A stretch of DNA of 64,000 nucleotides from Xiphydria camelus (taxonomy: Eukaryota; Arthropoda; Insecta; Hymenoptera; Xiphydriidae). Shown here one piece after another: positions 15,118-64,000 of the stretch (within the stretch, counting starts at the first letter, position 1; every line of letters starts with the position of its first letter). Where the stretch lies: positions 21,776,190-21,840,189 of the forward strand of contig OY783200.1 in NCBI GenBank assembly GCA_963678675.1, read 5' to 3'. The translations under genes were made by a program, and so were the position numbers. The notes below the pieces were generated by a model. It was not told the origin of the DNA. It was given only the letters and a program-made list of their open reading frames with translations, and did no database searches.

Positions 15118-15779
15118 CTCAAGCAAAATATGAATAATTGATGATAAAAATAATTTAATTTTAATCAAAATGGCTTGCTATAAACTCTGCATTAATTAAT
15201 CCGCAACATAATACAACTAAGTCGATGATGATTCGAATAATACTTAAAATTTCGTTGTCGATTTGAAACACGAGAGAATCTGATTGATTGGAGTCGGATT
15301 GAAAAAATTTATCGAAATGTGGGAATTTCTGCTTGATTGGGTTTTGATTGCCCAAGTTTTTGGACACTTGTTTGCAGGTGCCGGGGGGTCAATGAACTAC
15401 AGAGTTGCGAATGCACGGCTCGGTTAACTTCAGAGAGTGACTAGGAGATGGTGCTGGATGTTTGGTTTTACTCCGGTGTGATTTTTTCATTTTCAATGTA
15501 ATGATTTTCAGGAAAGCGATAAATATGGTTTGCAATTTCTCTTACCATGATTCTGTACAGTCATAGTGGCTCCATTAGAATGTTTCACAATGTATATAGG
15601 TATCTTTTAATGAACAGTTCCATAATAAAGTCCGTCCGATACTGATTACAACTGATTTTTCGGTTGCCTCGCGCTCGAGATAAAATCCTTCTCGTTTTTA
15701 TCGAAGTAAAAATCTGAAACTAAAATTGATGCGTTTTTATTATACTAAATTATAACGATTTTCTGTCATTTAATTTTTT

Positions 15780-16172
15780 TCATCGAGAAGCAAACATCAG
15801 CTGGTAAGCAACGCGGTTGAACGGGTTGTCTACATGCCGGAGCAGCTGTGCGTAAATTTCTGCACGAGATTCGTCGAAATATCGTATAAGTACGATAACA
15901 TTGAACATACCTAAATAATGTTGGAGGAAGAACTCAAAATGATTTCGACCGTTGCAGCATATCGTATCATCGATCTCAAAATTTCCCAAATTGAATTTCT
16001 CCAATCGAATTGAAAGATTATTGTTGATTTCAAAGATTAAATGAATATCCAGATAGCGTTGATTTATGCCATAGTATAATAGTCTAAAAATGTTAACCAG
16101 AGACTCGATAGTTATTACAAAAGTATCATCTGAAATTTTGAGAAACTGTAGAATCAGCTGTGGCTGAAACAA
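15780..16172 (-). other. 130-codon open frame of unknown nature in the left arm
   Basis: On the minus strand, a frame with a protein-like hydrophobic pattern runs from MFQPQLILQFLKIS to AYQLMFASR. The copy in the right arm (41759-42163) keeps the frame for about 107 residues and then shifts. Just upstream, in another frame, is a stretch reading FVQLIDVLLLYSKSLDPIRP. Together they could be the remains of one gene with a frameshift. I do not recognise the family, and it may be noncoding. Confidence 0.3.
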
Positions 16173-16783
16173 GAAGCTGAACTATCAGTGGTCTTATTGG
16201 ATCAAGAGATTTGCTATAAAGCAAGAGCACATCAATTAACTGAACAAATCTGCAATTAAAATATAAAAAATATATTATCAATTCTAGGTACAATAAATTA
16301 TTATCCTTATAATTAAATTCGTAAATATATATTGCAGGGGTGATAGCTGCCTATAATTCTCTCTTGAAAAGGAAAAATTAAATACTCTCGCAGGGAAAAT
16401 CGTACGCTAATATCGACATTTTCGGGAGGCAAAGTAGGGATATTCCAGGACTGTCGAAACTGGAGCACGGCCATCCTTGCGAGTGCTCCTTGTAAATTCG
16501 ATGTAAAATGCAGTTTATATTCAGTCGAAAATTAGATACCTACCCATACAGAGTAGAAAAATAATTCTCATATATCTCAAGCAAAATATGAATAATTGAA
16601 GATAAAAATAATTTAATTTTAATAAAAATGGCTTGCTATAAACCCTGCGTTAATTAGTCCGCGATATGACTAATAACTAAGTCGATAATGATTCGACTAA
16701 TAAATATTCGGAATATAATATGTAGAGGTATAATTTGTTCATAGGTTTTCTCAGAATAGATAGTTTATAATATTTCATATGTT

Positions 16784-17014
16784 TTACGGGCGCCAGGCAA
16801 AAATTGCGAGTCGCACCGACTTTCGTAGAATATAGAATAGACCTGCAAAGTAATAGAAGTTTCTATGCGCGACAATTTGCGGAGCTTTCAGATATGGTTC
16901 AGATAAGATAATACAGTAGGCGTTCCTTGCAAACTGGTACAAGTAATGACCCACACGGCTTTTACACCGATTTATCGAACCGGCGTCGCAGAATGGATGA
17001 AAAAGATATATCAA
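16784..17014 (-). other. 76-codon open frame identical in both arms
   Basis: The frame MIYLFHPFCDAGSINRCK... ending RLAIFAWRP is the same, residue for residue, in the right arm (40918-41148). Identity alone does not show coding, since the flanking noncoding DNA of the arms is also very similar. No family was recognised. Confidence 0.25.
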
Positions 17015-18898
17015 TTAGATATCAAAAATTACTGAAATAGAATTATTGCCTTGGACAAAAACGCGGTATTTATAAAGTTGCAACGAAAAGTGCATCCCAA
17101 TGCGACGCTGGTCGACGGTACCACGTTAGGGTACAAATTTTAATTTTCAGTTACACACACATGCAAAGAATATGTCTGGCAGCCTTGCGAGGCTAATCTT
17201 ACTAAAAAGGATAAGTCGACTATAATTTTTCAGCATAAATAAGCAAGTAAATTTGAGCCTCGATTATAATTAATAAGGTTTATGATTTTTCAGGAAATTA
17301 GAATCTTAATTTAATATAAAAAATTATAGCTCATATAGAAGCAGTTGTGATTCAATCTCAGCAGCTCTGGAATATCCCAGTTTGCCTCCCAACTGACGAC
17401 ACTGATTCACAACCAAATCTACAACGAACTCATTTTTTTTAAAGATACGATAAAAATCTACTAAAAAAAATGTCTGCTATAACTTGAACTTTTAAATAAA
17501 AATGAAATACGTAGGTATCGAAATGTAATTAAGTAATTTTTCTTTAAGTAATATTTAGTCAAAGAAGTCAAAGAAGTCAAAGTAGCAAATAAGTATAGAA
17601 AATTCACTCTCGCAAGCCCACTAGAGAAAGACAAGCGACAGTACGAGAGAAGGATAGTGCAAGAAGATCCGTGCGACACAAAAATTCCAGAGTCAACTCT
17701 GAAACGATCCCCCAGTGTCAAGAACTGGACGGAAAATTTCAGAAGATCCTCGGAAATTTTACACGCCGTACGGCAAGGGTGTGGCGCGACGAACGGCGTC
17801 CTCTTCACTGATGAGATTCTTCCTATGCGTACGAGTAATTCGTCACGTTTCATTGCTCGACGATCGCTCAAGTTCGGAGGAATCTTCAAACACCGAGCTA
17901 TGAGAAATCGTTAGCAATAAATGACAGAGACGAAATTCTCGCGATCTTGAAGTACTAAAGACCAATCCGCCCGAAGCAGACTCTGATCGATCACACTTTC
18001 AAGCATACATGGACCCCCCCCCCCCCCCAAATGCGTTGAGATTCAACGGACCCTACTAATTACCTATATTTAAAAAAACGAATGGCTATAATCGCGAAAA
18101 TCAGCAAGAGTACCTATGTATATTCACAAAATTCGGACATTTTCGCACTGATACATGCATTCGTCTCGTCAATCATTCTCTAATGTTGATCTTCGGTGAT
18201 GATCCAGCGTCGAGGGGGGAGATCTCGTCTCGACCCCCTCGCAGGAGCTGCAATACGACGCGAAAGCGATACACGGAATCGCGAATTTTTTAAGCTACGG
18301 ACTCTAAATCGTGACTCTATTGATCGTCCAAAGAAGGACAATTATTGCTAATGGGTTTATCGGTCGAACTTTAGTCCCTATTATTAGCTCTAGGATGAAA
18401 GTATAAAACGAGCAGAGAAGCTACCCTGAAAGAATCATAACCAAAGTGGATATCTGACCCTGAAAAAAATCCAAGAAACGAAGCTACCGCGATTTCCAAA
18501 GAGCCCGTATTAGAACTGGTAGTGATCAGGATTTTCTAGGCAAATGAGAGAAGTAACACGTCGTCCAGATGAAAGTTATGAATGTAAGAAAAAACGAAGT
18601 AAAGCAATCAACGTTAGAAGCGTTAACGAGCTTTCAATTATTACATTTCTTCGAGTGACGATATAAAAATAATTAAGCATCTCTTTGAAATTCGATTTTT
18701 ATTGAAGAGAGCGTACTTTATAATTACGTAACGAGAAAAACTGCATTGAAATGAGAGAAAATAAAGACTGGTCCGATTAAAATGCCGCTACAAATCGAGT
18801 TCTTTAATATTTTTTAGAAAAATTCAAATTCAGATGATAAGATAAGTGAAAAGAGATCCGCTACCAGCACCATAATACAAATCGGCTCTTTTCTTTCC

Positions 18899-18938
18899 AT
18901 CGCCAGGCTTCAGCCCCTCTTAAGGGGGCTGTGGCGAT
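18899..18938. repeat. stem-loop conserved in both arms
   Basis: ATCGCCA...CAGCCCC, loop TCTTAA, GGGGGCTG...TGGCGAT. Its mirror copy at 38993-39032 keeps the pairing. It could be an RNA structure, or simply unmutated arm sequence. Confidence 0.7.
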
Positions 18939-20790
18939 TTTTCCATCAGTTCAAGAAGCAACAATAAAATCGACAACGCGTCTCGCGAAACGAACAAATT
19001 TCGCTGACAAAGATTCATCTTGAATTCATCTACACGAAAAGTATCCACCGTTCGATGAGTTATCGATTTTTGATTTCTCGAGTTCAATTAATTCGCGAGC
19101 GTCGAACGGTGGTACCATCTCGCGATTATATTTGCAGCGAATTTTCGACGACAGTTATCCAAATAGCAAACGAGACAAATTTGAAACTAAGTATAAAAGT
19201 ATCTTCCCAAAACGCGTCTCGCTGCAAATCCCCTAAAGTGTTATCGTCGCGCCACACAGAAAAAGGGACAGAATGAGCGAAGAAAAGGCATATACAACGA
19301 ACCGATTTCGGTATAGCGCGTCATTCCGCGTACCGAAAGTCGGTTTGAGGAAATCTGAAGGGGGCACTCACCGATGACGATTACAGCCACCGCCGTTCTA
19401 GCTCCGACGTAACGTGGTAATCCAAAGTTTACTGCACAAAGAACAGAACAATATTGTCAGTCTAAAGCATGGCTGATTCGAGGTTCGTGGGGGAATGTAT
19501 TATACAATGTGGTTAACACCAGTATCCGGACACCCACAAAAATTTGGCAGATTTGATCGAGTGTTCTTACTAAATGGAATTTGTTATGGGCGTTCCCAGT
19601 TTATTGAAGATTCTTTCCCAGCAATTAATTCTTTTTAATACATTCAATAATTTATATCGTACCATAGTAACCTGGCAGATTTTACGAAGCCGACGGGGGA
19701 TATTTGAAGGAGTGTATCATGCGCGTCGAATTGAGAATAAAATACGCGAGGAAACGAACGTGGCAAACACGAAATGTCTGTATCGCGAACACCGAGAAAC
19801 TTCTAGAATTCTTGGGAGGTTTTTGTTTCGAAAGATTCGCGAGCACCACGATCATGCTCCCGGGTCGCGAAGCTCTCCGGTCTTCAAAATGGATTTCCGA
19901 CAATGTCCAGTCGTTCTACTGCAACAATTTTCTCGGAAGAGCAAAGGGAATACGAAAGGAGGGAGTGCGAGGCAAGAGCGCGCACCCGGTAAGCCAGACC
20001 GTGTCGAAATGGCATACCCTACCGCTGCGAGCTAAACAGCTCGCGTTACCTGTTGATCGCCGCGACTCGGCTGCGAGGCGCGCTCCACTCTCTCACTATA
20101 ACTAGGTACGACACATTCGAAACAAAGTATCGCAACGTTCAGCATCGAACGATGAAACGAATAAAAATAAACCCGAGCCTGTTTTAGAGTACGAAGAGGT
20201 ATTCCCTGTAATTTTATTTTAATATGGTCTTCCCATAAAATAAATATTTATTGCTATTTTTAAATTCAGTTTGAAATAATATACGTATTCGATATCGCAC
20301 GAAGAGAAAGACGTTCGACGGAATATTTATTCGCAGTTATAAGTCAAGCAACGAATATGAGAGAGAGAGAGCCCCCCTTACGATACACGAAAGAATGCAT
20401 AGAAACTTTTATTCTCGAACATCGATACGATTTTCCCTTATTTCGAAATTCCTCCCAAAAATCCCTGAACGTAACGAAAATGGCAATAAATATAATATTA
20501 CCGTTAGTTGTCGTCGCGTGTACATCCGCAGCAGCTGTAGCGTCGGTCTTGGCATTCTTGATATGAAACGAGCTCTCGATTTTGCTTCTGCTTACTGCAT
20601 CCCCGATGCAGCGTCTTCGTACGGAGTTCTCTCCACAGCATCCCGACTGATGTAGAATTTTTCACAAACGCGAAGGCGACAAAGTCCGTCACTGTCTCTC
20701 GTAAAACGAAAAGTTTGCACGCGATCTCTTGCACCACTTCGTGTCAACGCGTCACTGCCGTCCGAATGTTATACGTCAAAGCGATAGGTA

Positions 20791-22536
20791 CCCGGAGAAA
20801 TTGTCTCCCTCGCCACGAGCTTCGAGAGTCTTCGAAGCCACTTTACGACACGCGGAAACGAATACCGATGAAACTGTCCTCCTCTTCGCGATTTTCCGTC
20901 TCTCCGTGTCGCGAATTCCGACGCGACACCGCGACCCGAACAAGCCGAAAGGAACGACGAAGACGCTTCTCCCGTCACGAAAGGAAAACACGGCGCGAAG
21001 GAGTTCTTTCGAAACACGAGACCGTCTTAAAATGGCCGACGAGGAGGTATTTTTCTCATCGCGTCGGTATCTCGGCTCGCAAGGCATGTCGAGCCGCTCG
21101 TTCTCCGCAGGATCGCCTCACTGTCTCTCCGAGGATAAATCCGCGCGATATCCTCCCTGCCGCGTCGATACCGCTTATCCGCGAATTCAGCGTCCGATTC
21201 CCCGCGCCAACCCGCACGTGCGAGCGTATCGAAGGAACCGGCGAAACTGCGGTTCTTCTCGCCGAAGTCACGCGACTCGGCGCGAGGCTAGATTCAACCG
21301 TTACGCGTTCGATTCGTAACGTACGCTACCAACATATCGCTGCTTCCCGACAACACCGTCGCAACTCAACTACCCGGAGAAATTGTCTCCCTCGCCACGA
21401 GCTTCGCGAGTCTTCGAAGCCACTCTGCGACGCGCGAAAACGACTACCGATGAAACTGTCCGCCTCTCGGCGATTTTACGTCTCTCAGTGTCGCGAATTC
21501 CGACGCGACACCGTGACCCGAATGCGACGAAACGACCGACGGATACGCTTCTCCCGTCGCAAGAAGAAAACGCGGCGCGAAGAAATTTTCTCGAAGCCCG
21601 AGACCGTCTTAAAATGGCCGACGAGGAGGTGTTTTTCTCACCACGTCGGAATCTCTGCTTACAGGGCATGCCGGGCCGCTCCTTTTCCGCAGGATCGCCT
21701 CACTGTCTCTCCGAGGATAAATCCGCGCGATATCCTCCCTGCCGCGTCGATACCGCTTATCCGCGAATTCAGCGTCCGATTCCCCGCGCCAACCCGCACG
21801 TGCGAGCGTATCGAAGGAACCGGCGAAACTGCGGTTCTTCTCGCCGAAGTCACGCGACTCGGCGCGAGGCTAGATTCAACCGTTACGCGTTCGATTCGTA
21901 ACGTACGCTACCAACATATCGCTGCTTCCCGACAACACCGTCGCAACTCAACTACCCGGAGAAATTGTCTCCCTCGCCACGAGTTTCGCGAGTCTTCGAA
22001 GCCACTCTGCGACGCGCGAAAACGACTACCGATGAAACTGTCCGCCTCTCTGCGATTTTACGTCTCTCAGTGTCGCGAATTCCGACGCGACACCGCGACC
22101 CGAATGCGACGAAACGACCGACGGATACGCTTCTCCCGTCGCAAGAAGAAAACGCGGCGCGAAGAAATTTTCTCGAAGCCCGAGACCGTCTTAAAATGGC
22201 CGACGAGGAGGTGTTTTTCTCACCACGTCGGAATCTCTGCTTACAGGGCATGCCGGGCCGCTCCTTTTCCGCAGGATCGCCTCACTGTCTCTCCGAGGAT
22301 AAATCCGCGCGATATCCTCCCTGCCGCGTCGATACCGCTTATCCGCGAATTCAGAGTCCGATTCCCCGCGCCAAGCCGCACGTGCGAGCGCGTCGAAGGA
22401 ACCGGCGAAACTGTGGTTCTTCTCGCCAGAGTCACGTGACTTCGGCGCACAGGGCCGAATCTAGATTCAACCGTTTGGCGTTCGATTCGTAGCATTATAC
22501 GCTCCAACATATCGCTGCTTCCCGACAAGACCGTCA
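20791..22536 (+). repeat. 582-bp GC-rich tandem repeat, three units (left arm)
   Basis: Units begin with CCCGGAGAAATTGTCTCCCT at 20791, 21373 and 21955, exactly 582 bp apart. Because 582 is divisible by three, a 574-codon frame stays open through all units (20715-22439). Other frames on both strands are also open, which argues for stop-poor composition and not for a gene. Units 2 and 3 are closest to each other; unit 1 is more diverged. Confidence 0.95.
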
Positions 22537-22763
22537 CATCTCAAAATTTCAGTAGGAGCATTTAAAGCTTATTAAAAATTTTAATTAAAAGCTATTGTAG
22601 AATGATTTGCTGTCTGAATTTAGTGGAAGTCAAACAAATTCAGACACCCTAGTAGCAGAGGATATCTGTCAGACATCTACAAGATGTCTATATGTCTAGA
22701 AAATGATATCTATATTTGGTATAAATGTGGTCGAAATCAAGATTTAGTCAGCGCGTATATGCG

Positions 22764-24263
22764 CGAACGAATGCGTTTAGTGGCAGTTTAACAAATACGG
22801 AATTAGAGCATTGGCGACCTACGGTATGCAACACGCATATTTTACTTCCGCCTTTCTCGTTCCGTCGCTCGGTATTAGAACCCTGATTTAGGGAGGAGAA
22901 TGTACAAAACACGCTGTATTGAAAATAGAGGAATAACGCGGTATGCGCCAACCGATAGAGTTTTCGGTCGCCCTTTTACTCTATAAACGATTAAAAGACT
23001 GCATTTGATAGGAAAATTGCATCGAAACATCTTCTAAATCTTAGAAAGTACCATATAAAAAATTATCCGAAATCTATTGAATTTCTGAACGTATTAGCTA
23101 CCGATATTGCACTTCGAGCGGCAATATCTCACGAAGGATATCCTCCTTCCTCTCTATAAAGGATTGTAACAATGATTGGAATCTCCAAACTGTGAAAATT
23201 CTAACGATGAATCAATAGGAGCTACTCGAAACGCTAAGCAGCACTCTCTTTGCATTTACAATTAGCCAATTCGCTCTTTAGAGTCCACCGAAATGATTAG
23301 ACCAAAACCTTGCAAAATCTCGACGGTTGGCTCGCTACATCTTTCTCTCTGATTCCGTTGCATAATCGTAATCCCTCCTATACAACTTTTAATTCGCGAG
23401 GTTGTTATTTTCCAGCCAGACTGAACAGTTTTTAATTCGCCGGGTTGTTATTTTCCAGCCAGACTGTACTGACGCACTCCTGTGTTACCTAGTGACCCAG
23501 ACAGTGCAGTCAGCTGGTCAGCTGTTGCCCCGCTTCGGTCAGTAACCCTGCACTATACATCTCTGGCCGTGAAAGCGATAGCGGGTCGGTCTCCGTACTA
23601 TTCCGAACGAACATATCGGCTCTCCAAGGATTAGCCGGACTGGGCGAGAAAAATTAGGTTTATTTCCGTTATTAATCCTTTGACGAAAAAATTTTTCGAA
23701 TGAAAGTTATTTTGTTTCAAAAGGGGCATACGATGCATATGAAAGAGTTTAGAAACAGCTCGTCATTTTCGAGATACTAAAATCATCCTTGCTTTTTCTA
23801 AATAGATCTTGAAATTTTTGTTCATACAAAAATTATTCGACTCATTAAGACTAATAAGAAGGTGGAAAGCGAAATTGTCCTCTGTCTAATCCTTCGTGCG
23901 ATATTGCCGCTCGAAGTGCAATATCGGTAGCTATATTCAGAAATTCAATAGATTTCGGATAATTTTTTATATGGTACTTTCTAAGATTTAGAAGATGTTT
24001 CGATGCAATTTTCCTATCAAATGCAGTCTTATAATCGTTTATAGAGTAAAAGGGCGATCGAAAACTCTATCGGTTGGCGCATATCGCGTTATTTCTCTAT
24101 TTTCAAAACAGCGCGTTTTGTACATTCTCCTCCCCAAATCAGGGTTCTAATGCCGAGCGATGGAACGAGAAAGGCGGAAGTAAAATATGCGTGTTGCATA
24201 CCGTAGGTCGCCAATGCTCTATAATTCCGTATTTTTTAGACTGCCACTAAACGCATTCGTTCG
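22764..24263. mobile_element. 1.5-kb element with terminal inverted repeats of about 390 bp
   Basis: Left arm about 22764-23150 and right arm about 23890-24263 are near-perfect reverse complements. The outer end is CGAACGAATGCGTTTAGTGG and the inner end reads into 'accgatattgcacttcgagc'. The 0.75-kb middle has a 55-bp direct duplication (about 23389-23466, 'gttgttattttccagccag') and no coding frame of note. Probably a non-autonomous DNA transposon. Confidence 0.88.
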
Positions 24264-26388: not shown

Positions 26389-26487
26389 TTCCAGAACCTT
26401 CGAGAGGCTTCGGTTTTCTCACTCGCACTCGCGGTCTTCCATTGCTCTCTCACTCGCACTCATGGTCGTGAATTTTCGAGAATCTTC
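26389..26487 (+). promoter_or_regulatory. two perfect three-unit heat-shock elements
   Basis: TTCCAGAACCTTC at 26389-26401 and TTCGAGAATCTTC at 26475-26487 both match TTCnnGAAnnTTC without mismatch. An AT-rich CTATATTA follows at about 26519-26526. This is the arrangement of a heat-inducible insect promoter, placed ahead of the exon-like units starting near 26.5-27 kb. Confidence 0.65.
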
Positions 26488-27490
26488 TATCCCCCACTCC
26501 CGACCACCTGTTGGCTGAACTATATTACCGAACGCAGCGGCGATTTCGGCGGAGTCTCCCAAGGGTTGTCAGCCCACTGGTAACACGGTGGGACGCTTTT
26601 TATCTGGCTTCCTACAGGAGGTGCTCCCCCTCCTTGTCTCGGTCATCTGCTGCATCAGGCTCAATCGTTAGCACGGTTCGAGACGTTTTGGGGCATCGGC
26701 GAGAGCCGTGGGCCCGGCGAATGCGAGGAAAGCATTCACGGGTTGCGATGCCGAGCCAAGGAGCCTGGGTGTGGGGCCCAGGGCCCCCGGAATATTCCGC
26801 GTAGGGCGGCTTTATAGTCGCCTCTTGCGCCGTTTAATCCGGGCGCGATAGGAGGAAGGGTGGGATGGGTGGGTGGGTCAAGAAAAGAAGAGAGAAGAAG
26901 ACGAGCGAAGACCAAGTGCCCGGCTCGACCAAGGATGGCCGGTTTTTGCATCTCCGTCGGAGATTTCCGGTGAGATTTCACTTCTTCCCGCTTTCTATGT
27001 GTTTCGCGATGATTCGATGTTCGCGATGTGTTTCTACGATGTGTTTCTGCGATCGCGATGTGTTTCTGCGTTTCGCGATGATTCGATGTCCTTGAAACGC
27101 GTTCCGTGTCGATTCGACCGGCTCGGAGCGAATTCTAGAGTTTCGACTTGTATTTTCGTGGAGCTTTGCTTCGTCGAGCGATTTCCTCGGGAAAACGCGG
27201 TCGTTTCTAATCGTAGTTTTTGTTCTCCGTCGCAGGCGGAGCGAAGGAGGATGGAAAGTCCACTACACGCCCGGGCTTCGACTGGGTCGTGGACTAGGGT
27301 CCCGTCACGAGCACTATGTGGTGAGTGTTATTTATTTCTGCAATAATTCGATCGATCCGCGGACTCGAAAATTTGCTTATCATAGAAGTTATCGGCTTTC
27401 GCGTCGTCGACCGATTCCTTTCGAAAAGTATATCCGCGTGCAATCCGTTTTTCGTGCGTCGCTCCAATTCAAATCGCTTCGAGATTATTT

Positions 27491-29689: not shown

Positions 29690-31833
29690 GTAAGTCCCAG
29701 CTGTTAAAGTTCTTCCGTCGTCTCTCGGTACGCGATTTGGCGAAATACCGAGAGCGATGGTCGTATTTATCTATCCTCTCACTATCCTTTTTTTTCGCGT
29801 GGTGCAACGACGTCCGTGATATTTGCAGCGAAATGCGCGTACATTTGTACTCAGCTCCCAATTGTATTGCTTGGAGCGGAACGTTTTGTGTTCAGTTCGT
29901 TAATATTATACTTATCAAAATTATTTTACCTTTTGAGAGGGAAATATCAAATCTCTGTAAACGGTTCTTCTCTCGAATCAGGGCTCTAATTTTCGCTGCA
30001 AATTTAGATCTAAGCCCGAGGTGCGCAGACGTTCGGTGGACGCGAATCAAATGAAATTCCGACTTTTCTTTAAAAATTTAACATCGAACGTTCTGTGCAT
30101 CGATCGGAATATATATCAGGGAACTTGTTCGCTCAATCGCGGTACGCGAATACTTGAATACTTTTGTCGAATCGTTGCCAGAGCTCAAGGGAGCCTGGTG
30201 ACACTTTGAGACCAACTTAAAAGCTTGGTTTCACGCGTTTGAATCGCGGTCGGCTATTTTTCTTGGATTTTTTTCAGGAGTCGAGTCGCGTTAAAAAATT
30301 CGAGTTTTCTTATGTTTCTTTCAGAGTAGCTTCTCGTTCGTATTGTCATCGTAAAGCTAATAATAAATTGGTTAAAGTCGTCCGGTAAAAATACGATAGC
30401 ACTTTTCTAAAGTGCAGTCGCGGCGTAGAGTCTTAGAGAATAGGACAATCGCGAACCGATCTGTCTTTCGCGTCGTTTTCAGCAATTGAGAAGGGGTTGA
30501 GGAAGAATCTCCCCCTTCTCACACGGCGAGGGAGCTATCCAAAGGAGGAAGCGGATATACCACGTGCGAATGTTGAATGTATGTGTTGGTGAGCATGGTC
30601 GTTTTTTTGGATATACAGGGGTTAGGTAGGCTTTTCGCGATTATGGCCATCGTTTTTAAATATAGGTGGTTAGGTAGGGCTCCGATCTACGAATTATCGC
30701 GTCGCGAATTTGGCCAGTGTGACTGAGGGTGCGAGGTGTTGAACAAATTTACAGATAACTGCACCGTTGCAGTCTTGCCCGCTGCTAGTATTAATGCGGC
30801 TAACGATCGTTGGTCTCGTTTCGCTTTCTCTTCCGGCTCGAACTCGCGAGATAATCACTCTTCGTTGTCGCGCGGCTTTCATTTCGATGTTTGAAGGTTT
30901 CCATCGAATTCGAAAAGCGGTAGGCAAGGACACGCGAAGGGTATCCTCTCGCGAATTCGATTAAAAAATTTCGTTATCGCTTTCTGGAGCGCTCACGAAA
31001 CGCGTTCGCGTGCAATTGAATTTCGGGACGGTACAGCAATGCACCGTGAGTCTCTAAAAATTGCGTTCCATTGCTCTCGCCCGCGTTTTCCAACGATCGT
31101 TAGGCGAGGCAACGGCGAGGTCGCTAACACCGTGCTGCGTGGTGCATGGTGGCAATCGGTTTCGCAAGCCGTCTGCGACTTCGCCTTGCCAGAAGAAAGA
31201 AGAAAGAAGTCATCAGTGAAGAGGACGCCGGTCGTTGCACCACGCACCCGACCATAACGGTTCGTATAATTTCGGAGGAGTTCTCGAGACTCTTCTGCAA
31301 ATTTTCGAAATCTGCAGAACATATCGAGAATGAATCTGGAATTGAATACGTCCTATGGTTTTTCTTCTTTTCCTCTATCTTTCTCTCTCTATATATTTTT
31401 TCTTCTATATTCAGAAGAAAGCAAAGTAGGCGTGCGATTTGATATGCATTCATTCTGAACATATAATTTTCAGAATTTTAGAAATTCAATTAAGAAATAT
31501 TTAATTTCTCTAGTTCAATTTAATTAATTTTAATATATTTGACTATCATTTTTTTACCTATTCAAGTTCCTTGCTTTTGATAAAAGTCAATTCTCTTTGA
31601 ACGATATTCCATATCGTTTAATAAGCTTTAAAATTTATTTCTGGTGCACATTGAATATGCAATATTTTGTGAGATTTTCTAGTTCTCTTATTTAATCGTA
31701 AATTTTTGATACAGAAAATGATTTTTTGCAAACTGAAATATAGTAAAAGAAATGTAATAGTTCCACGTATAACTAATGGTACACTACAAATAAGGTTCAT
31801 GGCTATAATATTTTCAAAAGATTCAATCCAATA
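29690..31833. other. spacer DNA with a diverged internal copy of arm sequence
   Basis: About 30200-31300 resembles the right arm at 39440-40220 in the same orientation. Shared marks are 'cttggatttttttcaggg', 'gtagcttctc', the clusters around CTCCCCC, and GTGAAGAGGACGCCG. Divergence is much greater than between the two arms. The frame GATTGVLFTDDF (minus) resembles GATNGVLFTDEI in the arms, but the similarity is equally strong at third positions. 31330-31830 is AT-rich and empty. Confidence 0.6.
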
Positions 31834-32695
31834 GATGTACAGCATTGCTTCCGCCGTTTTTCCGAAATTCGAGGCTTTATTGTGAAAAACTGGTTATACA
31901 TTTATGATTCAAAGTATTGGGGCAGGGCCGTTGTTTCGCTTCATAAATCGCGGATCGCGGTAGTAGTACGTTAGGTCCGTTCGTAATCATTTATAATACA
32001 TAGCGCGATAAAAATTAAAGGAGAGAGTATCATATGTGGTGACTCTCACTGACGTGGGCGTGGATGGGGCCCTGGTCATTTCGCTTCATCAATCGCGGAT
32101 CGCGGTAGTAGTACGTTAGGTCCGTTCGCAGTTATTTATAATGCATAGCGCGATAAAAATTAAAGGAGAGAGTATCATATGTGGTGACTCTCACTGACGT
32201 GGGCGTGGATGGGGCCCTGGTCATTTCGCTTCATCAATCGCGGATCGCGGTAGTAGTACGTTAGGTCCGTTCGCAGTTATTTATAATACATAGCGCGATA
32301 AAAATTAAAGGAGAGAGTATTGAATTTGGAGACTCTCACTGACGTGGGCGTGGATGGGGCCCTGGTCATTTCGCTTCATCAATCGCGGATCGCGGTAGTA
32401 GTACGTTAGGTCCGTTCGCAGTTATTTATAATACATAGCGCGATAAAAATTAAAGGAGAGAGTATCGAATTTGGAGACTCTCACTGACGTGGGCGTGGAT
32501 GGGGCCCTGGTCATTTCGCTTCATCAATCGCGGATCGCGGTAGTAGTAGGTACGTTAGGTCCGTTCGTAATTATTTCGGGCACATGCATAAGAGCGCATC
32601 TTTCGGGTAGCATACGAATCTCGCGTTAAAAAAATTGGTCATCTTTTGAATCGAACGGCGGAGGAAAAATGGCGGAAGCAAAGTCGTACACCTAA
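31834..32695 (-). mobile_element. non-autonomous mariner derivative carrying a minisatellite
   Basis: Read on the minus strand, it begins TTAGGTGTACGACTTTGCTT (32695) and ends GCATTGCTGTACATC (31834), with TA on both sides (31832-31833 and 32696-32697). Its last about 85 bp match the 3' end of the mariner at 1-551, including remains of the transposase stop region (CAATACTTTGAATCATAAAT). The coding body is gone and is replaced by a 145-bp tandem array. Confidence 0.88.
31920..32570. repeat. 145-bp tandem repeat, about 4.5 units
   Basis: The marker TCGCTTCAT starts at 31936, 32081, 32226, 32371 and 32516, each 145 bp apart; the last unit is partial. Units include 'gacgtgggcgtggatggggc' and an inner small stem (GAGAGT...ACTCTC). 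The middle units are almost identical, so expansion is recent. Confidence 0.97.
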
Positions 32696-32699
32696 TAGT

Positions 32700-33830
32700 A
32701 TTATTCTGTTCGCATCGCACGCCTACTTTGATATATACATTTCGCATATACCATGTATTAGTTTAAGAAAACTTGGTGAGTACCACTGAAGTAAAAGTGG
32801 ATTAGATGTATAAGTTCTGTCAACCGGAGTCTCACTACGCAGTGTCCTAATTAAATATTTAAACATATAAATAAAGTCCTATAATTTATTTCAAACATTT
32901 GAAACACGTAGTATAGTATTGAACTTTATTTGTTCAAATGAAACTGCAGTTTATGCACGGAGAATGCTAAATTCACATTACAATTATTGTATCAATAAAT
33001 TTTATTAATTCAATTTACAATGCGCTTAACGCTGAAAGAATGTAAATACTTGTTAAAATGATATCATTCAAGCTCCTTCAGAGAATCATGAATTGCATTC
33101 GATACACAAAATATAAGATATTTTTACAGAAATTATATAATTATAATATTGAAATTTTATCAAGCTTGCAATTATTGATGAGTATTTATCATAAGAGTTA
33201 ATCACTGGAGAACATATTAAATGTTCTCAAAACGTCAGTGGGGCTCCGGTCTTGACCCCCGGAGGAAGTACTTGCCTTGTAGCAGTGAACTCCGGGAAAA
33301 ATTGAGTTCCGCGGAAATGTACCACCCTCACACGGTGAGGCATTCTTTATTATATAAAATGTGGCGCGTCTCGCCTTTTTGCTTGACGCCCACTTAATCC
33401 CCAATGCCTTCGGGCATCCTATCCTGGAAAGGATATCTCGACCCGATATTTATGTATATTATTGATACATAAATAAATAAACTCTTCCCTCGCCTCATCT
33501 ATCATTATTTTTAAGGGATTCATTGTGGAGTAAGAAACGAGGAACGATCGAGTAACATTGATCGCGTTCATCGCTTTCGTTTTCCCCGCAGTGAATCCGT
33601 GAAAAATGTTCACCTCTCATATAGGATAAGAGAATTTGTATAATTTTAATAAAGAAATATATCTATGTCTCCTTTTCCCTCATCTCACCATTCATATGAC
33701 ATCATTATTTTTTAAGGATTCAAATCGGGGTAAAGGATGGAGCAATGATTAATTGAAATTAATCATTTATCACTCCTTTTCCCTCCTAAGAATTCTTTAA
33801 AAATGTCATATATATCCATTTAATTTAAGA
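32700..33830. other. AT-rich spacer DNA, no gene recognised
   Basis: Mostly AT-rich sequence. A GC-richer island at 33180-33620 has inverted phrases (CTTGACCCCCGGAGG, GAACTCCGGG) but no recognised element or coding frame. The phrase 'ccctcatctatcattattttt' recurs at about 33488 and 33675, indicating an old duplication. Confidence 0.4.
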
Positions 33831-33839
33831 CTACTAATC

Positions 33840-34400
33840 ATTTTCTATTTCAGGTCTACGAATTAATACGAAACTTTCTTTTTCAGGGAATATAGATATA
33901 AGTTACTCTCTCTTTCCCGATTAGCCAAATGTTACAGATTTCTGTTACTCTGCTGTAAAATTACAAATGGAATGCAATTTGCAACGGCAGCTTGTCACCA
34001 AAATCATAGCACTCTGTGACACTCGGCTATCGGGCTTTGTTGTAGCTAGTGAATAGTTGTAATCTTTCTGCTTTCTGTTTCAGTTTGTCAAACTTCGTGC
34101 AATTACCTATAAAACGTTACCTTTCAGGTGGACTACGGCAATTTTTTGAGCTAAAATTAGATATAATTAATCGTTCTGCTTTCTGTTTCAGTTCGTCAAA
34201 TTTGGTCCCATTATACAGCGTTACTCTTCAGACGGTCTACGGCAATTTTTTTTATCTAACATGAGATGACTAATCATTTTGCTTTCTGTTTCAGATCGCC
34301 GAAATTTTAATGATGACATCTTTTTCAGGCAAACTGCGACTGTCTTTTATATTTAAATAAGACTATTAATCGTTCAGCTTTATGTTCCACTTATAGATTT
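33840..34400 (+). repeat. degenerate tandem repeat of about 97-108 bp
   Basis: 'ctttctgtttcag' or a close variant recurs at about 34071, 34179, 34282 and, more decayed, 34379 and 33845. It is followed each time by a 'cgtcaaa...tttcagg...ctacggcaatttttt' block. Each unit contains acceptor-like pyrimidine-AG stretches, which could mislead gene finders. Confidence 0.75.
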
Positions 34401-34669
34401 GGTCTTATTCTCGGGACACTGGATTTCTCAACTTCTAAAAAAGAGCTCAACACTTGTCGCCGTGGGAATACACGAAACTCTAGTTTATTATCATTAGTTA
34501 GGCTTCATCATCTTAGGGTATTTCATTTCATCTTCAGCTCCCGTGTCTTTGCAATTGCACCAGTTGCTTTTCCTTTATTATCTCTCTTTGTTCGTTTTCT
34601 CGTTACCGGCTATCAACCACATCCTTTCAATTATCCTCCTGCAATGTCGTTTCGTCGCTGGTGTCTTAA

Positions 34670-34930
34670 GCTTTTAGGCTCTTCGTTGAATTCGTGGATT
34701 CTTCTTTGAACTCGTAGGTTCTTTGTCGAATTCGTATAGACTCTTCGAACTCGTATAGGTTCCTCGTTGATTTCGTATAGGCTCCTCGATCTCGTTTAGG
34801 CTCTTCTTCGAATTCGTAAAGGCTTCGATCTCGTTTAGTCTTGTCGTCTTTGTTATAGGTAGATACATGGTCCTCTATAGGCTTCGCTCGGTTTTCTTAA
34901 ATTCCTCGTCGTCTCTATAGGCTCTTCGTT
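34670..34930 (+). repeat. degenerate short tandem repeat around TATAGGCTCTTCG
   Basis: About ten imperfect units of roughly 24-30 bp containing 'aggctcttcg' and 'gaattcgtat' or 'tctcgttt'. Open frames here are a by-product. Confidence 0.75.
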
Positions 34931-35829
34931 ATTATTCTACAGGTTTCCTACAACGCTCCTCGATTTTCCCTTCATCCTAAAAGTACATTTTCATACTTTT
35001 AAGTGGCAAGAAAGTAAAAGCCGTCATAAGCATGGTGTTGTTGCACAGACAGGGGAGCTTTCCTACATGTAGGGGATTCATTTACTTGTAAGGATAAGTT
35101 TGATAAAAGGAATTTGTTTTATTAATTAATTTTGTAAAACTCTACGATGGAAGCGGACTTTAGTTTTTAAACTAGTTTTTAATAACACTATGTAAGAGCA
35201 TCGACAAGTTTTCATTCGCGCCTCTCATTTTTTTATTTATACAGCCGGCCCTTGCATGCCGAAAGCATCGCGTGATAATTTATCGTCGCTGATATTTAAT
35301 ATCGGGAATTAGATTGCTAGAAACTTATCGATGGTCGCGGACCGTCGTTAGCAGGGACCTTCTCGTGGTACGGTCTGAAGGATCCGTAACGCTCGACATC
35401 GAGTCTTATGGATCTACCAACGCCTGCTATTTTGTAATAGAATCTTCTCGCGAGGGTATAGGATTTCATCAATATGACGGACATTCTATTCGTGGTAAAT
35501 GAATCGTTCAATTTGATAACAATTTTGAAAACGACATAAATCTGCTTTACGTCTTCGAAACTTCCCCCCATGGCCTGTCATCTTTGAGATCGCAACACTG
35601 GGAGAGATGCGATGCGTAAGTTGATCGTATGTTAAGTATTCGTGTTTTGATTGTTAATATATTGTGAATTAATTTTTCTTATTTTGTTAACCCGGAAGAC
35701 GGATTGTTAATTTTTTCCTTACAGCTATTAGCTTAGTCAAGGGAGAATTTACATCGAACCGAACCGTTATCATGGTTGGCGCTCTTGGCATAGCTGCTCC
35801 GGTTTGTTGGCAGTCTCTCTTCCAGGATA
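34931..35829. other. spacer DNA next to the right arm
   Basis: No recognised gene or element. The sequence is moderately AT-rich. Confidence 0.35.
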
Positions 35830-36060
35830 TCGCTGCTTCCCGAGAAGACCGTCACAACTCAAAATTTCAGTGGGAGCATTTAAAACTTATTACAAATTCA
35901 AATTAAAAGCTATTGTAGAATGAGTTTTCTGAATTTGTTTGACTTCCACTAAATTCAGACAGCACCTCATTCTACAATAGCTTTTAATTTAAATTTGCTA
36001 TACGCTTTTAATGCTTCTACTGAAATTTTGAGTTGTGACGGTCTTCTCGGGAAGCAGCGA
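35830..36060. repeat. palindromic inner terminus of the right arm
   Basis: GCTGCTTCCCGAGAAGACCG at the left is mirrored by CGGTCTTCTCGGGAAGCAGC at the right. Between them AAAAGCTATTGTAGAATGA pairs with TCATTCTACAATAGCTTTT. The left arm has only one side of this palindrome (22525-22650). Confidence 0.85.
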
Positions 36061-39000
36061 TATTTTGGAGCGTATGCTACGAATCGAACGCCAAACGGTT
36101 GAATCTAGATGCGGCCCTGCGCCGAAGTCACGTGACTCTGACGAGAAGAACCGCAGTTTCGCCGGTTCCTTCGACGCGCTCGCACGTGCGGGCTGGCGCG
36201 GGGAATCGGACCGTGAATTCGCGGATAAGCGGTATCGACGCGGGAGGGAGGATAGCGCGGATTTATCCTCGGAGAGAGAGTGAGGCGATCCTGCGGAGAA
36301 GGAGCGGCCTGGCATGCCCTGTAAGCAGAGATTCCGACGTGGTGAGAAAAACACCTCCTCGTCGGCCATTTTAAGACGGTCTCGGGCTTCGAGAAAATTT
36401 CTTCGCGCCGCTTTTTCTTCTTGCGACGGGAGAAGCGTATTCGTCGGTCGTTTCGTTGCATTCGGGTCGCGGTGTCGCGTCGGAATTCGCGATACGGAGA
36501 GACGTAAAATCGCAGAGAGGCGGACAGTTTCAACGGTAGTCGTTTCCGCGCGTCGCAGAGTGACTTCGATGACTCGCGAAGCTCGTGGCGAGGGAGACAA
36601 TTTCTCCGGGTAGTTGAGTTGCGACGGTCTTGTCGGGAAGCAGCGATATGTTGGAGCGTACGTTACGAATCGAACGCGAAACGGTTGAATCTAGCCTCGC
36701 GCCGAAGTCGCGTGACTTCGGCGAGAAGAACCGCAGTTTCGCCGGTTCCTTCGACGTGCTCGCACGTGCGGGTTGGCGCGGGGAATCGGACGCTGAATTC
36801 GCGGATAAGCGGTATCGACGCGGCAGGGAGGATCGCGCGGATTTATCCTCGGAGAGACAGTGAGGCGATCCTGCGGAGAACGAGCGACTCGTCATGCCTT
36901 GCGAGCCGAGATACCGACGCGATGAGAAATACCTCCTCGTCGGCCATTTTAAGACGGTCTCGTGCTTCGAGAGAACTCCTTCGCGCCGTGTTTTCCTTTC
37001 GTGACGGGAGAAGCGTCTTCGTCGGTCGTATCGGCGTGTTCGGGTCGCGGTGTCGTATCGGAATTCGCGACACGGAGAGACGCAAAATCGCGAAGAGGAG
37101 GACAGTTTCATCGGTATTCGTTTCCGCGTGTCGTAAAGTGGCTTCGAAGACTCTCGAAGCTCATGGCGAGGGAGACAATTTCTCCGGGTACCTATCGCTT
37201 CGACGTATAACATTCGGACGGCAGTGACGCGTTGACACGAAGTGGTGCAAGAGATCGCGTGCAAACTTTTCGTTTTACGAGAGACAGTGACGGACTTTGT
37301 CGCCTTCGCGTTTGTGAAAAATTCTACATCAGTCGGGATGCTGTGGAGAGAACTCCGTACGAAGACGCTGCGTCGGGGATGCAGTAAGCAGAAGCAAAAT
37401 CGAGAGCTCCTTTCATATCAAGAATGCCAAGACCGACGCTACAGCTGCTGCGGATGTACACGCGACGACAACTAACGGTAATATTTATTGCAATTTTCGT
37501 CACGTTCAGGGATTTTTTGGGGCAATTTCGAAATAAGGGAAAATCGTATCGATGTTCGGGAATAAAAGTTTCTGTGCATTCTTTTGAGTATCGTAAGGGG
37601 GGCTATCTCTCAACGAACGTCTTTCTCTTCGTGCGATATTGAATAGGTATATTATTTCAAACTGAATTTAAAAATAGCTATAAATATTTATTTTATGGGA
37701 AGACCATATTAAATAAAATTACAGGGAATACCTCTTCGTACTCTAAACAGGCTCAGGCTTATTTTGATTCGTTGCATCGTTCGACGCTGATCGTTGAGAT
37801 ACTTTGTTTCGAGCGTGTCGTATCTAGGTAACCTAGTAAGAGAGAGTGAGCGCGCCTCACAGCCGAGTCGCGGCGATAACAGGTAACGCCAGCTGTTTAG
37901 CTCGCAGCGGTAGGGTATGCCATTTCGACACGGTCTGGCTTACAGGGTGCGCGCTCTTGCCCCGCGCTCCCTCCTTGCGTATTCCCTTTGCTCTTCCGAG
38001 AAAATTGTTGCAGTAGAACGACTGGACATTGTTGGAAATCCATTTTGAAGACGGGAGAGCTTCGCGAACCGGGAGGACGATCGTGGTGCTCGCGAATCCT
38101 TCGAAAAAAAACCTCCCAAGAATTCTAGAAGTTTCTCGGTGATCGCGATACAGAAATTTTGTGTTCGTCACGTTCGTTTCCTCGCATATGTTACTCTCAC
38201 TTCGACGCGCATGATACGCTCCTTCAAATATCCACTGTCGGCTTCGTAAAATCTGCCAGGTTACTATGGTACGATATAAATTATTGAATGTGTTAAAAAG
38301 AATTAATTGCTGGGAAAGAATCTTCAATAAACTGGGAACGCCCATAACAAATTCCATTTAGTAAGAACACTCGATCAAATCTGCCAAATTTTTGTTGGTG
38401 TCCGGATACTAGTGTTAACCACATTGTATAATACATTCCCCCACGAACCTCGAATCAGCCATGCTTTAGACTGACAATATTGTTCTGTTCTTTGTGCAGT
38501 AAACTTTGGATTATCACGTTACGTCGGAGCTAGAACGGCGGTGGCTGTAATCGTCATCGGTGAGTGCCCCCTTCAGATTTCCTCAAACCGACTTTCGGTA
38601 CGCGGAATGACGCGCTATACCGAAATCGGTTCGTTGTATATGCCTTTTCTTCGCTCATTCTGTCCCTTTTTCTGTGTGGCGCGACGATAACACTTTAGGG
38701 GATTTGCAGCGAGACGCGTTTTGGGAAGATACTTTTATACTTAGTTTCAAATTTGTCTCGTTTGCTATTTGGATAACTGTCGTCGACAATTCGCTGCAAA
38801 TATAATCGCGAGATGGTACCACCGTTCGACGCTCGCGAATTAATTGAACTCGAGAAATCAAAAATCGATAACTCATCGAACGGTGGATACTTTTCGTGTA
38901 GATGAATTCAAGATGAATCTTTGTCAGGGAAATTTGTTCGTTTCGCGAGACGCGTTGTCGATTTTATTGTTGCTTCTTGAACTGATGGAAAAATCGCCAC

Positions 39001-42000
39001 AGCCCCCTTAAGAGGGGCTGAAGTCTGGCGATGAAAAGAAAAGAGCCGATTTGTATTATGGTGCTGGTAGCGGATCTCTTTTCACTTATCTTATCATCTG
39101 AATTTGAATTTTTCTAAAAAATATTAAAGAACTCGATTTGTAGCGGCATTTTAATCGGACCAGTCTTTATTTTCTCTCATTTCAATGCAGTTTTTCTCGT
39201 TACGTAATTATAAAGTACGCTCTCTTCAATAAAAATCGAATTTCAAAGAGATGCTTAATTATTTTTATATCATCACTCGAAGAAATGTAATAATTGAAAG
39301 CTCGTTAACGCTTCTAACGTTGATTGCTTTACTTCGTTTTTTCTTACATTCATAACTTTCATCTGGACGACGTGTTACTTCTCTCATTTGCCTAGAAAAT
39401 CCTGATCACTACCAGTTCTAATACGGGCTCTTTGGAAATCGCGGTAGCTTCGTTTCTTGGATTTTTTTCAGGGTCAGATATCCACTTTGGTTATGATTCT
39501 TTCAGGGTAGCTTCTCTGCTCGTTTTATACTTTCATCCTAGAGCTAATAATAGGGACTAAAGTTCGACCGATAAACCCATTAGCAATAATTGTCCTTCTT
39601 TGGACGATCAATAGAGTCACGATTTAGAGTCCGTAGCTTAAAAAATTCGCGATTCCGTGTATCGCTTTCGCGTCGTATTGCAGCTCCTGCGAGGGGGTCG
39701 AGACGAGATCTCCCCCCTCGACGCTGGATCATCACCGAAGATCAACATTAGAGAATGATTGACGAGACGAATGCATGTATCAGTGCGAAAATGTCCGAAT
39801 TTTGTGAATATACATAGGTACTCTTGCTGATTTTCGCGATTATAGCCATTCGTTTTTTTAAATATAGGTAATTAGTAGGGTCCGTTGAATCTCAACGCAT
39901 TTTGGGGGGGGGGGGGGGTCCATGTATGCTTGAGAGTGTGATCGATCAGAGTCTGCTTCGGGCGGATTGGTCTTTAGTACTTCAAGATCGCGAGAATTTC
40001 GTCTCTGTCATTTATTGCTAACGATTTCTCATAGCTCGGTGTTTGAAGATTCCTCCGAACTCGAGCGATCGTCGAGCAATGAAACGTGACGAATTACTCG
40101 TACGCATAAGAAGAATCTCATCAGTGAAGAGGACGCCGTTCGTCGCGCCACACCCTTGCCGTACGGCGTGTAAAATTTCCGAGGATCTTCTGAAATTTTC
40201 CGTCCAGTTCTTGACACTGGGGGATCGTTTCAGAGTTGACTCTGGAATTTTTGTGTCGCACGGATCTTCTTGCACTATCCTTCTCTCGTACTGTCGCTTG
40301 TCTTTCTCTAGTGGGCTTGCGAGAGTGAATTTTCTATACTTATTTGCTACTTTGACTTCTTTGACTTCTTTGACTAAATATTACTTTAAGAAAAATTACC
40401 TAATTACATTTCGATACCTACGTATTTCATTTTTATTTAAAAGTTCAAGTTATAGCAGAAATTTTTTTTAGTAGATTTTTATCGTATCTTAAAAAAAAAT
40501 GAGTTCGTTGTAGATTTGGTTGTGAATCAGTGTCGTCAGATGGGAGGCAAACTGGGATATTCCAGAGCTGCTGAGATTGAATCACAACTGCTTCTATATG
40601 AGCTATAATTTTTTATATTAAATTAAGATTCTAATTTCCTGAAAAATCATAAACCTTATTAATTATAATCGAGGCTCAAATTTACTTGCTTATTTATGCT
40701 GAAAAATTATAGTCGACTTATCCTTTTTAATAAGATTAGCCTCGCAAGGCTGCCAGACATATTCTTTGCATGTGTGTGTAACTGAAAATTAAAATTTGTA
40801 CCCTAACGTGGTACCGTCGACCAGCGTCGCATTGGGATGCACTTTTCGTTGCAACTTTATAAATACCGCGTTTTTGTCCAAGGCAATAATTCTATTTCAG
40901 TAATTTTTGATATCTAATTGATATATCTTTTTCATCCATTCTGCGACGCCGGTTCGATAAATCGGTGTAAAAGCCGTGTGGGTCATTACTTGTACCAGTT
41001 TGCAAGGAACGCCTACTGTATTATCTTATCTGAACCATATCTGAAAGCTCCGCAAATTGTCGCGCATAGAAACTTCTATTACTTTGCAGGTCTATTCTAT
41101 ATTCTACGAAAGTCGGTGCGACTCGCAATTTTTGCCTGGCGCCCGTAAAACATATGAAATATTATAAACTATCTATTCTGAGAAAACCTATGAACAAATT
41201 ATACCTCTACATATTATATTCCGAATATTTATTAGTCGAATCATTATCGACTTAGTTATTAGTCATATCGCGGACTAATTAACGCAGGGTTTATAGCAAG
41301 CCATTTTTATTAAAATTAAATTATTTTTATCTTCAATTATTCATATTTTGCTTGAGATATACCGAGAATTATTTTTCTACTCTGTATGGGTAGGTATCTA
41401 ATTTTCGACTGAATATAAACTGCATTTTACATCGAATTTACAAGGAGCACTCGCAAGGATGGCCGTGCTCCAGTTTCGACAGTCCTGGAATATCCCAACT
41501 TTGCCTCCCAAATGTCGATATTAGCGTACGATTTTCCCTGCGAGAATATTTAATTTTTCCTTTTCAAGAGAGAATTATAGGCAGCTATCACCCCTGCAAT
41601 ATATATTTATGAATTTAATTATAAGGATAATAATTCATTGTACCTAGAATTGATAATATATTTTTTATATTTTAATTGCAGATTTGTTCAGTTAATTGAT
41701 GTGCTCTTGCTTTATAGGAAATCTCTTGATTCAATAAGACCACTGATAGTTCAGCTTCTTGTTCCAGTCACAGCTGATTCTACAGTTTCTCAAAATTTCA
41801 GTTGATACCTTTGTTATAATTATCGAGTCTCTGGTTAACATTTTTAGACTACTATGCTATGGTATAAATCAACGCTATCTGGATATTCATTTCATCTTTG
41901 AAATCAACAATAATCTTTCAATTCGATTGGAGAAACTTAATATGGGAAATTTTGAGATCGATGATACGATATGCTGCAACGATCGAAATCATATCGAGTT

Positions 42001-42808
42001 CATCCTCCAACATTATTTAGGTATGTTCAATGTTATCATAGTTATACGATATTTCGACGAATCGTGTCGAAATTTACGCACAGCTGCTCCAGCATGTAGA
42101 CAACCCGTTCAACCGCGGTGCTTACCAGCTGATGTTTGCTTCTCGATGAAAAAAATTAAATGACAGAAAATCGTTATAATTTAGTATAATATAAACGCAT
42201 CAATTTTAGTTTCAGATTTTTACTTCGATAAAAACGAGGAGGATTTTATGTCGAGCGCGAGGCAACCGAAAAATCAGTTGTAATATATCGGACGGACTTT
42301 AATTTTGGAACTGTTCATTAAAAGATACCTATATACATTGTGAAACATTCTAATGGAGCCACTATGACTGTACAGAATCATGGTAAGAGAAATTGCAAAC
42401 CATATTTATCGCTTTCCTGAAAATCATTACATTGAAAGTGAAAAAATCACACCGGAGTAGAACCAAACAGCCAGCACCATCTCCTAGTCGCTCTCGGAAG
42501 TTAACCGAGCCGTGCATTCGCGACTCTGTAGTTCATTGACCCCCCGGCACCTGCAGACTGGTGTCCGAAAACTTGGACAATCGAAACCCAATCAAGCAGA
42601 AACTCCCACATTTCGATAAATTTTTTCAATCCGACTCCAATCAATCCGATTCTCTCGTGTTTCAAATCGACTCCGAAATTTTGAGTATTAGTCGAATCAT
42701 CATCGACTTAGTTGTATCATGTCGCGGATTAATTAATGCAGGCTTTACGGCAAGCCGTTTTGATTGAAATTAAATTATTTTTGTCTTCATTTTTTCATAC
42801 TTTGCTTG
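35925..42808 (-). repeat. giant inverted repeat, right arm (about 6.9 kb)
   Basis: Mirror copy of 15118-22650. It has two instead of three units of the roughly 580-bp repeat (boundaries near 36610 and 37188), which accounts for most of the length difference. It ends abruptly at about 42808, after 'atactttgcttgag', where a tRNA-like sequence region begins. Frames at 37857-38357, 38655-38876, 40018-40275 and 41759-42163 mirror those in the left arm, with small changes. Confidence 0.93.
36035..37190 (-). repeat. about 580-bp GC-rich tandem repeat, two units (right arm)
   Basis: Unit borders with CTCCCGG-type sequence (TTTCTCCGGGTA on the plus strand) lie at about 36610 and 37188. The content matches 20791-22536 in reverse. 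Confidence 0.93.

Positions 42809-47463: not shown

Positions 47464-64000
<16,537 letters not shown>

Follow-up and report, generated by a model that had tools for sequence, protein, structure and literature searches.

The window analyzed here is a 64,000-nucleotide stretch of the Xiphydria camelus genome (C28:21776190-21840189, in a 357-Mb hymenopteran genome of 38 contigs). It contains a giant inverted repeat of 27.7 kb, which is made up of two arms of roughly 7 kb and a 13-kb spacer, referred to as the body. The best explanation for this structure, and a modestly probable one, is a multi-copy locus, probably transcribed and spliced, that has been caught in a palindrome with converting arms. 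Copies at other loci are referred to by contig, with a letter where needed (e.g., C17a).

Both arms are recovered by comparing the window with itself. BLASTN aligns 15118-21951 with 42810-36028 in inverted orientation (6849 columns, 96.1% identity with gaps). A global alignment of the arms over 15118-21950 has 190 substitutions in 6767 aligned columns, or 97.2% identity, and 22 indel events that amount to 81 gap columns. The original prediction, made from the letters of the window, described such an inverted repeat with three tandem units in one arm and two in the other, and both the repeat and the counts are confirmed. It also described arms that differ by a few percent through scattered substitutions. 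The overall figure stands, but the divergence is not evenly scattered: it is 5.6% in the outer block (15118-16213), 0.66% in the next (16214-19694), and 4.8% in the inner block (19695-21950). The homology continues inward to about 22646 on the left, where the arm ends in a short hairpin, TCTGAATTT..AAATTCAGA, and to about 35928 on the right. The outer end of the right arm, at 42810, lies within an A1-type piece (Table 1).

The body is not a featureless spacer but is itself a dispersed repeat. A search with 27500-31500 yields 118 matches among the best 38 of 146 candidates, and merging nearby matches gives at least 38 loci on ten contigs. With 31450-35800, at least 211 matches are found (best 24 of 458 candidates), some of them at further loci. 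The copies on C24 and C20 are colinear with the window from ~24.8 kb and ~23.4 kb, respectively, to ~32.5 kb. Both are without 27490-28038, and their left ends differ. Past ~32.5 kb, the 145-bp array and a piece from 34.5-35.1 kb are reiterated and their order is changed. No arm is found in the 6.9 kb upstream of the C20 copy or in the 1.3 kb upstream of the C24 copy. Because these bodies have no arm nearby, the body is taken as the widespread family, with arms, as far as the searches reach, confined to one branch of it (C28, C21, and C17).

Arm copies were sought with the core 16600-19600, keeping matches of at least 1.4 kb from the best 40 of 164 candidates, and the counts are lower bounds. 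At least 15 matches occupy at least 11 loci (six on C28, four on C21, and one on C17), which is incompatible with a duplication specific to this locus and without other copies. At least four loci are two-armed, with inverted pairs 18-22 kb apart: the window, C17a, C28b, and C28d. The loci compared with the window are five more with arms (C28e in part) and one on C21, C21x, for which the body part was used. The layout of the window recurs in C17a and C28d. C28b has two arms, the right one shortened, that enclose a mostly different spacer; C28c has only a left arm; and C28e has a right arm and a reversed body. In addition to C24 and C20, the body is found in C17a, C28c, C28d, C28e, and C21x. The flanks of the copies are unrelated, save for matches of 0.2-0.7 kb. 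The same two-armed layout at C17, with other flanks, makes an assembly error unlikely. In such an error, two haplotypes or copies would have been joined in inverted orientation, as identical stretches of up to 660 bases between the arms might suggest. Yet the flanks differ at each end, the numbers of units are unequal, and the independent two-armed C17 copy has the same left/right differences in its inner arms, and this explanation is hardly credible.

The arms have also overwritten each other. Substitutions between them are clustered (dispersion index of 3.21, compared with at most 1.73 in 2000 shuffles), and the longest identical run of 660 compares with at most 384 in 2000 shuffles. Site patterns were scored in a quartet composed of the left and right arms of the window and of C17. 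In 16214-19300, 57 sites group the arms by locus and one groups them by arm. In 19301-21370, the left arms group together, as do the right arms, at 26 sites, and no site groups by locus; the switch is located between 19056 and 19639. The left/right differences of the inner arms are common to both loci, and the two-armed unit thus predates its copying between C28 and C17. The 57:1 excess of by-locus sites means that the arms were overwritten within each locus after this copying. When the window is compared with C28d, grouping is by locus throughout, at 297 sites (1+131+86+79) versus 2. These site patterns show that the arms within a locus were homogenized in their outer-middle part, probably by gene conversion during pairing of the arms, either in one chromatid or between sister chromatids. 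One proposal in the original prediction was a stalled palindromic duplication kept alike by gene conversion. Block divergence and site patterns uphold the conversion, but the unit belongs to a multi-copy family and is not a single stalled event.

Several observations count against this account of the arms. The outermost block is mixed, with eight by-locus sites, three of the arm type, and four of the third kind. The by-locus sites clustered at 17323-17335 are not independent and may reflect one event. In 20501-21370, the right arm of C17 is both divergent and shortened, and the nine sites there therefore count for less than the 16 of 19695-20500. Finally, the C28 and C17 bodies are more uniform than most of their arms. 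Between the window and C17a, body identity per one-kb bin is 97.1-99.3%, except in the last of the 14 bins (69.3%), and the arm cores are 95.4-97.1% identical, with the inner left arm (98-99.5%) as the exception. Between C28d and C28e, the body bins from 24.5 to 34.5 kb are 98.1-99.8% identical, and those at 23.5 and 35.5 kb are 77.7% and 96.5% identical, respectively; the arm cores are 95.9-96.1% identical. Between the window and C28d, divergence is 1.4-2.7% in the body at 24.5-33.4 kb, 4-5% beyond, and 7-18% in the arms. The uniformity of the bodies could come from later exchange of bodies between loci or from selection.

The tandem units of the left arm record an unequal crossover. The middle unit, L2, differs from L3 at four of the first 420 alignment columns and matches L1 throughout the last ~220. 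L2 is thus a mosaic of its neighbors, and the third left unit was gained by a single unequal crossover in a two-unit array. On this comparison, the two units of the right arm represent the older state. The units contain a 574-aa open frame, whose openness is attributed to the GC-rich sequence and to a unit length divisible by three (582 = 3 x 194). In a protein search with this frame, none of 7998 scored candidates reached E 0.001.

Sex chromosomes provide the best-known long palindromes whose arms convert each other. Judged from its sequence, the locus has the structure of this class, i.e., large inverted arms, a spacer, and by-locus grouping in converted tracts. It resembles the human Y palindromes in arms and spacer and in conversion tracts on the kilobase scale (here one block of ~3.5 kb). 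Tracts in the human palindrome P6 have a mean of 2068 bp (PMC3723533), which makes the scale of conversion here ordinary. The human arms are >99.9% alike, whereas those of the window are 97.2% alike. Unlike the human palindromes, the unit is multi-copy on three contigs, lies on a contig that is not known as a sex chromosome, and has no recognized gene in the arm that was searched.

When copies are aligned, separate islands of the body prove far less variable than the sequence around them (Table 1). The longest runs without any change in eight copies from five contigs measure 170, 164, and 104 bp, and 2000 shuffles reach at most 99 bp. Divergence from the C21 copy falls to 0-3% at 26550-26999, 31050-31349, and 33150-33449 (the last two bins at most 3.3%). 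Among the window, C24, C20, and C21 copies, it is 0-1% at 26613-26912 and 0-2% at 31113-31312, and rises to 4-14% at 26913-27312; the higher range extends to 27412, with 1-4% at the final bin edge (27413). Island 1 is kept at 92% in C28b, whose spacer mostly no longer aligns. Relative to shuffled sequences, predicted folding is stronger for island 1 (z of -3.4 over 26535-26830) and island 2 (z of -5.3 over 31052-31376), and island 3 has z of -2.7 on this strand and -2.9 on the other. In a by-eye comparison of island 1 in C28b and the window, which carries little weight, two substitutions seem to keep pairs. The islands would be exons or structured RNA parts that are kept by selection. Against this stand further dips relative to C21, at 32700 and at 34350-34950, positions at which the remaining copies are as variable as elsewhere. 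The dips at 34350-34950 coincide with ordinary variation, so low divergence from C21 alone is no proof of constraint.

A rather unlikely alternative is that the copies are passive, functionless segmental duplications near chromosome ends, with islands that are conversion hot spots or chance. The variable ends and the rearranged one-armed copies fit this, as does position: on the five contigs of known length, 22 of the 24 loci of 27500-31500 are no more than 8 Mb from a contig end, a limit that was set post hoc. The invariant runs, however, exceed all shuffles in eight copies on five contigs, and the body has a one-strand bias of donor sites and homologous exon-like repeats. The persistence of island 1 in C28b, despite a mostly unalignable spacer, also speaks against it. 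Some of this evidence could be mimicked by conversion among copies.

Besides the invariant islands, splice-site-like motifs suggest that the body is transcribed. The GT[AG]AGT donor-like motif occurs 10 times on the + strand of the spacer and twice on the - strand, and 3 of 300 first-order simulations reach 10 on the + strand. In 26413-31900, six of the seven donor-like sites are invariant in the copies that have letters there. Five homologous repeats of exon-like size end in such sites (Table 1). They can be aligned with one another at a mean column identity of 67% and are reminiscent of a gene with duplicated exons. On this evidence, the body is probably a spliced transcription unit on the + strand.

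The product of the body seems more likely to be noncoding than coding. Indels between the exon-like repeats are not multiples of three. Some spacer frames are open in all copies compared, e.g., 30895-31254 (+), 30996-31352 (-), and 33201-33449 (-), and a coding test on them across copies gives no trustworthy third-position pattern. A shared RNA structure of the five repeats is not supported (unfavorable covariation term of +3, with 2 of 17 pairs changed on both sides). Over 33 codons, none of the phases stays open in every repeat; over the final 31 codons one phase does, and the repeats may thus be coding. These results count against the preferred explanation.

Table 1. Features of the inverted repeat and its body, in window positions
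Feature	Start	End	Strand	Remarks
Left arm	15118	22646	+	Homologous to right arm from 15118 on
Right arm, inverted copy	35928	42810	-	From self-comparison and arm alignment
Spacer (body)	22647	35927	+	One copy of a dispersed family (38 or more loci, ten contigs)
Low-divergence arm block, conversion tract(s)	16214	19694	+	0.66% between arms
Three 582-bp tandem units, left arm	20789	22544	+	Middle unit recombinant of the other two
Two 582-bp tandem units, right arm	36028	37190	-	
Island 1	26540	26868	+	Invariant runs 26540-26643, 26645-26808, 26833-26868 (eight copies)
Island 2	31077	31376	+	Invariant runs 31077-31118, 31136-31305, 31318-31376 (eight copies)
Island 3	33215	33445	+	Low divergence from C21 copy; C24 and C20 outside the comparison
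Five homologous exon-like repeats, ~100 bp each	27222	29532	+	GT[AG]AGT donor-like ends at 27321, 28370, 28891, 29217, 29527
Outer tandem piece A1	14991	15242	+	Second copy at 16436-16702
Palindrome in spacer, 0.9 kb	24817	25715	.	86% self-complementary
145-bp tandem array, 4.4 copies	31934	32576	+	Longer and reiterated in C24 and C20 copies
Short palindrome, right arm inner end	35821	36069	.	85% self-complementary

Under the preferred explanation, an ancestral body would have undergone many duplications, most of them close to the ends of chromosomes. A 7-kb flanking segment would, in one branch, have come to lie on both sides in inverted orientation, or a closed palindrome would have been split by the body. 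The short palindrome at 35821-36069, where the right arm ends inward, is possibly the relic of an older closed palindrome center, which fits the second route. The two-armed unit was then copied to or from C17, probably by ectopic recombination or template switching. The arms in each locus then overwrote one another, probably by conversion, and other copies would have lost an arm. Copying would proceed through duplication or ectopic recombination and not through a transposase. A bolder form of this explanation, in itself unlikely, makes the body a self-propagating or drive-like gene for a spliced noncoding RNA, with dozens of copies spread over many chromosomes in a single insect lineage, no protein of its own, and RNA islands under selection. 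The palindrome would have been recruited in one branch, and its arms would keep the copies uniform by conversion.

Pfam profiles were searched against six frames of 15001-37502, with stops as X, which covers the left arm, the spacer, and the inner 1.6 kb of the right arm. No family scores above its cut-off in this region, transposases included. The claim that the repeat has no recognized mobile-element protein holds there, and the genes expected of a Maverick/Polinton (family B polymerase, integrase, and capsid) have no match above cut-off. The left arm likewise has no domain above cut-off. Seven sub-threshold matches are present, the best being SH3_retrovirus (E 2.1e-5, 24.7 bits vs a cut-off of 27), in which no single stretch passes alone.

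These searches bear on another explanation, a giant foldback DNA transposon, in which the arms would be terminal inverted repeats mobilized by a transposase from elsewhere. The nearest element in build is Galileo, whose longest copy measures 9021 bp and has arms of 4246 and 4680 bp (PMC4168063). Like the window, Galileo and other foldback transposons have long arms with internal tandem repeats and copies that lack transposase; one Galileo copy without transposase has tandem repeats in arms of 4.2-4.7 kb (PMC4168063). Inverted arms around the body at four loci with unrelated flanks, and the tandem units inside the arms, are also what a foldback element would have. Galileo copies, however, are flanked by identical target duplications, 7 bp in most copies (PMC4168063), whereas the structure in the window is 27.7 kb long, does not share its ends with other copies, and yielded no target duplication. 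All ten definable outer arm ends are different. Near the ends of the window, C17, and C28b copies there are just 5-6-bp matches, none of which could be placed as a target duplication, and there are none at C28d. The C20 body without an arm upstream and the one-armed copies also speak against this origin, as does the lack of a transposase domain in the searched region. The giant foldback element of the original prediction is thus favored by copy number, with at least 11 arm loci and at least 38 spacer loci, but not by its ends. A search for shared termini and target duplications found neither, which is why the locus is not classed with the foldback transposons, and this origin is distinctly unlikely.

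The arms could also be a source of long double-stranded RNA, as the original prediction proposed. In a hairpin-RNA locus, read-through of the arms would produce long double-stranded RNA and then small interfering RNAs (siRNAs) against homologous transcripts, and the arms here could pair over 7 kb at 97%. The Drosophila simulans loci Nmy and Tmy are similar in being inverted repeats, autosomal in that species, that match target genes (PMC10292708). Their targets and siRNAs are known, whereas the present locus is known from sequence alone. A transcript of ~27 kb would be required, and the left arm has no match to a recognized protein family. This alternative is very unlikely.

The locus as preferred here, a multi-copy and probably spliced unit in a converting palindrome, also has points in common with dispersed noncoding families. 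Dispersed multi-copy noncoding gene families and duplicons have many copies, often near chromosome ends, and constrained islands. The present family differs in its length of 13 kb, its five tandem exon-like repeats, and its tie to converting palindromes. A narrow literature search, of open-licence papers, found no description of this structure, and no claim of its being unpublished is made. One hymenopteran holds a set of palindromes from a single family, and the one-armed and apparently armless relatives in that family serve as natural controls. The succession of copying, conversion, and decay can therefore be followed directly. It is a natural case of how DNA with no recognizable protein is copied and stays uniform. 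If the islands do belong to a multi-copy RNA, it would be a large gene family that is invisible to protein-based annotation.

Additional repeats are found within the unit. An inverted pair, 22764-23139 and 23889-24263 (378 columns, 95.5%, ~750 bp between), lies just inside the inner end of the left arm. The 0.9-kb palindrome of the spacer is also present in C17a, C28c, C28d, C28e, and C24 but is not seen in the C20 copy. Arm-like sequence at 30242-30684 and 31201-31387 is 64-67% identical to the arm, inverted relative to the left arm, and apparently ancient. The spacer also contains an invariant 49-bp run (30621-30669) that adjoins two TTAGGTAGG motifs, which presumably recall the insect telomere unit. 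In the arms, the stretch 16900-17000 (mirrored at ~40930-41030) has 0.9% divergence among 13 arms, and neighboring bins have 4-7%; it contains a GGTTCGA motif on the minus strand.

For RNA families, no Rfam family reaches its gathering score in the window, and a tRNA search of it returns none. A laxer Rfam search of the spacer gives 19 matches, all below the gathering score. Most are miRNA models, and these sit mostly on the palindromes at 25.1-25.3 and 35.8-36.0 kb. A mir-1422 model falls within island 2 (26.5 bits vs 60 for gathering), and island 1 has no Rfam match.

The flanks of the inverted repeat contain a recognizable gene. A TMC gene at 8577-10559 (Pfam, E 3.5e-41) encodes a protein 72% identical to that of Cephus cinctus and 61-72% identical to those of named Hymenoptera among 120 proteins listed. 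Given this gene and its hymenopteran relatives, the window cannot be bacterial or viral in origin. A MAM match near 49.3 kb is below cut-off (18.1 bits vs 26.4), and together with a glycine-rich open frame at 56531-57313 it is reminiscent of the Alk receptor gene. The open frame at 6-470 presumably resembles the C-terminal part of a mariner transposase. The end of this frame (456-549) has a 94-column match to 31833-31919 in the spacer. Short interspersed repeats are dense in most flank bins, at 12-14 kb and 46-64 kb. They make up as much as 44% of a 2-kb bin in the flanks and are absent from some flank bins; between 16 and 44 kb, they make up 3-15% of 3 of the 14 bins and are absent from the remaining bins.

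Two sister loci have further features of their own. At C28:24035411-24066393, the order is an arm, a reversed body, a second body piece in the opposite orientation (C28:24059920-24064173, near C28e), and an arm fragment, which is apparently a still larger palindrome. In the C28b spacer, where the protein search covered 3 of 12 frame pieces, a stretch of 51 residues on the minus strand (3733-3885 of that locus's sequence) matches Monjiviricetes_fusion, a viral fusion glycoprotein (E 5e-8, 31.8 bits vs a cut-off of 27). By this match, the C28b copy carries a putative endogenous viral fragment.

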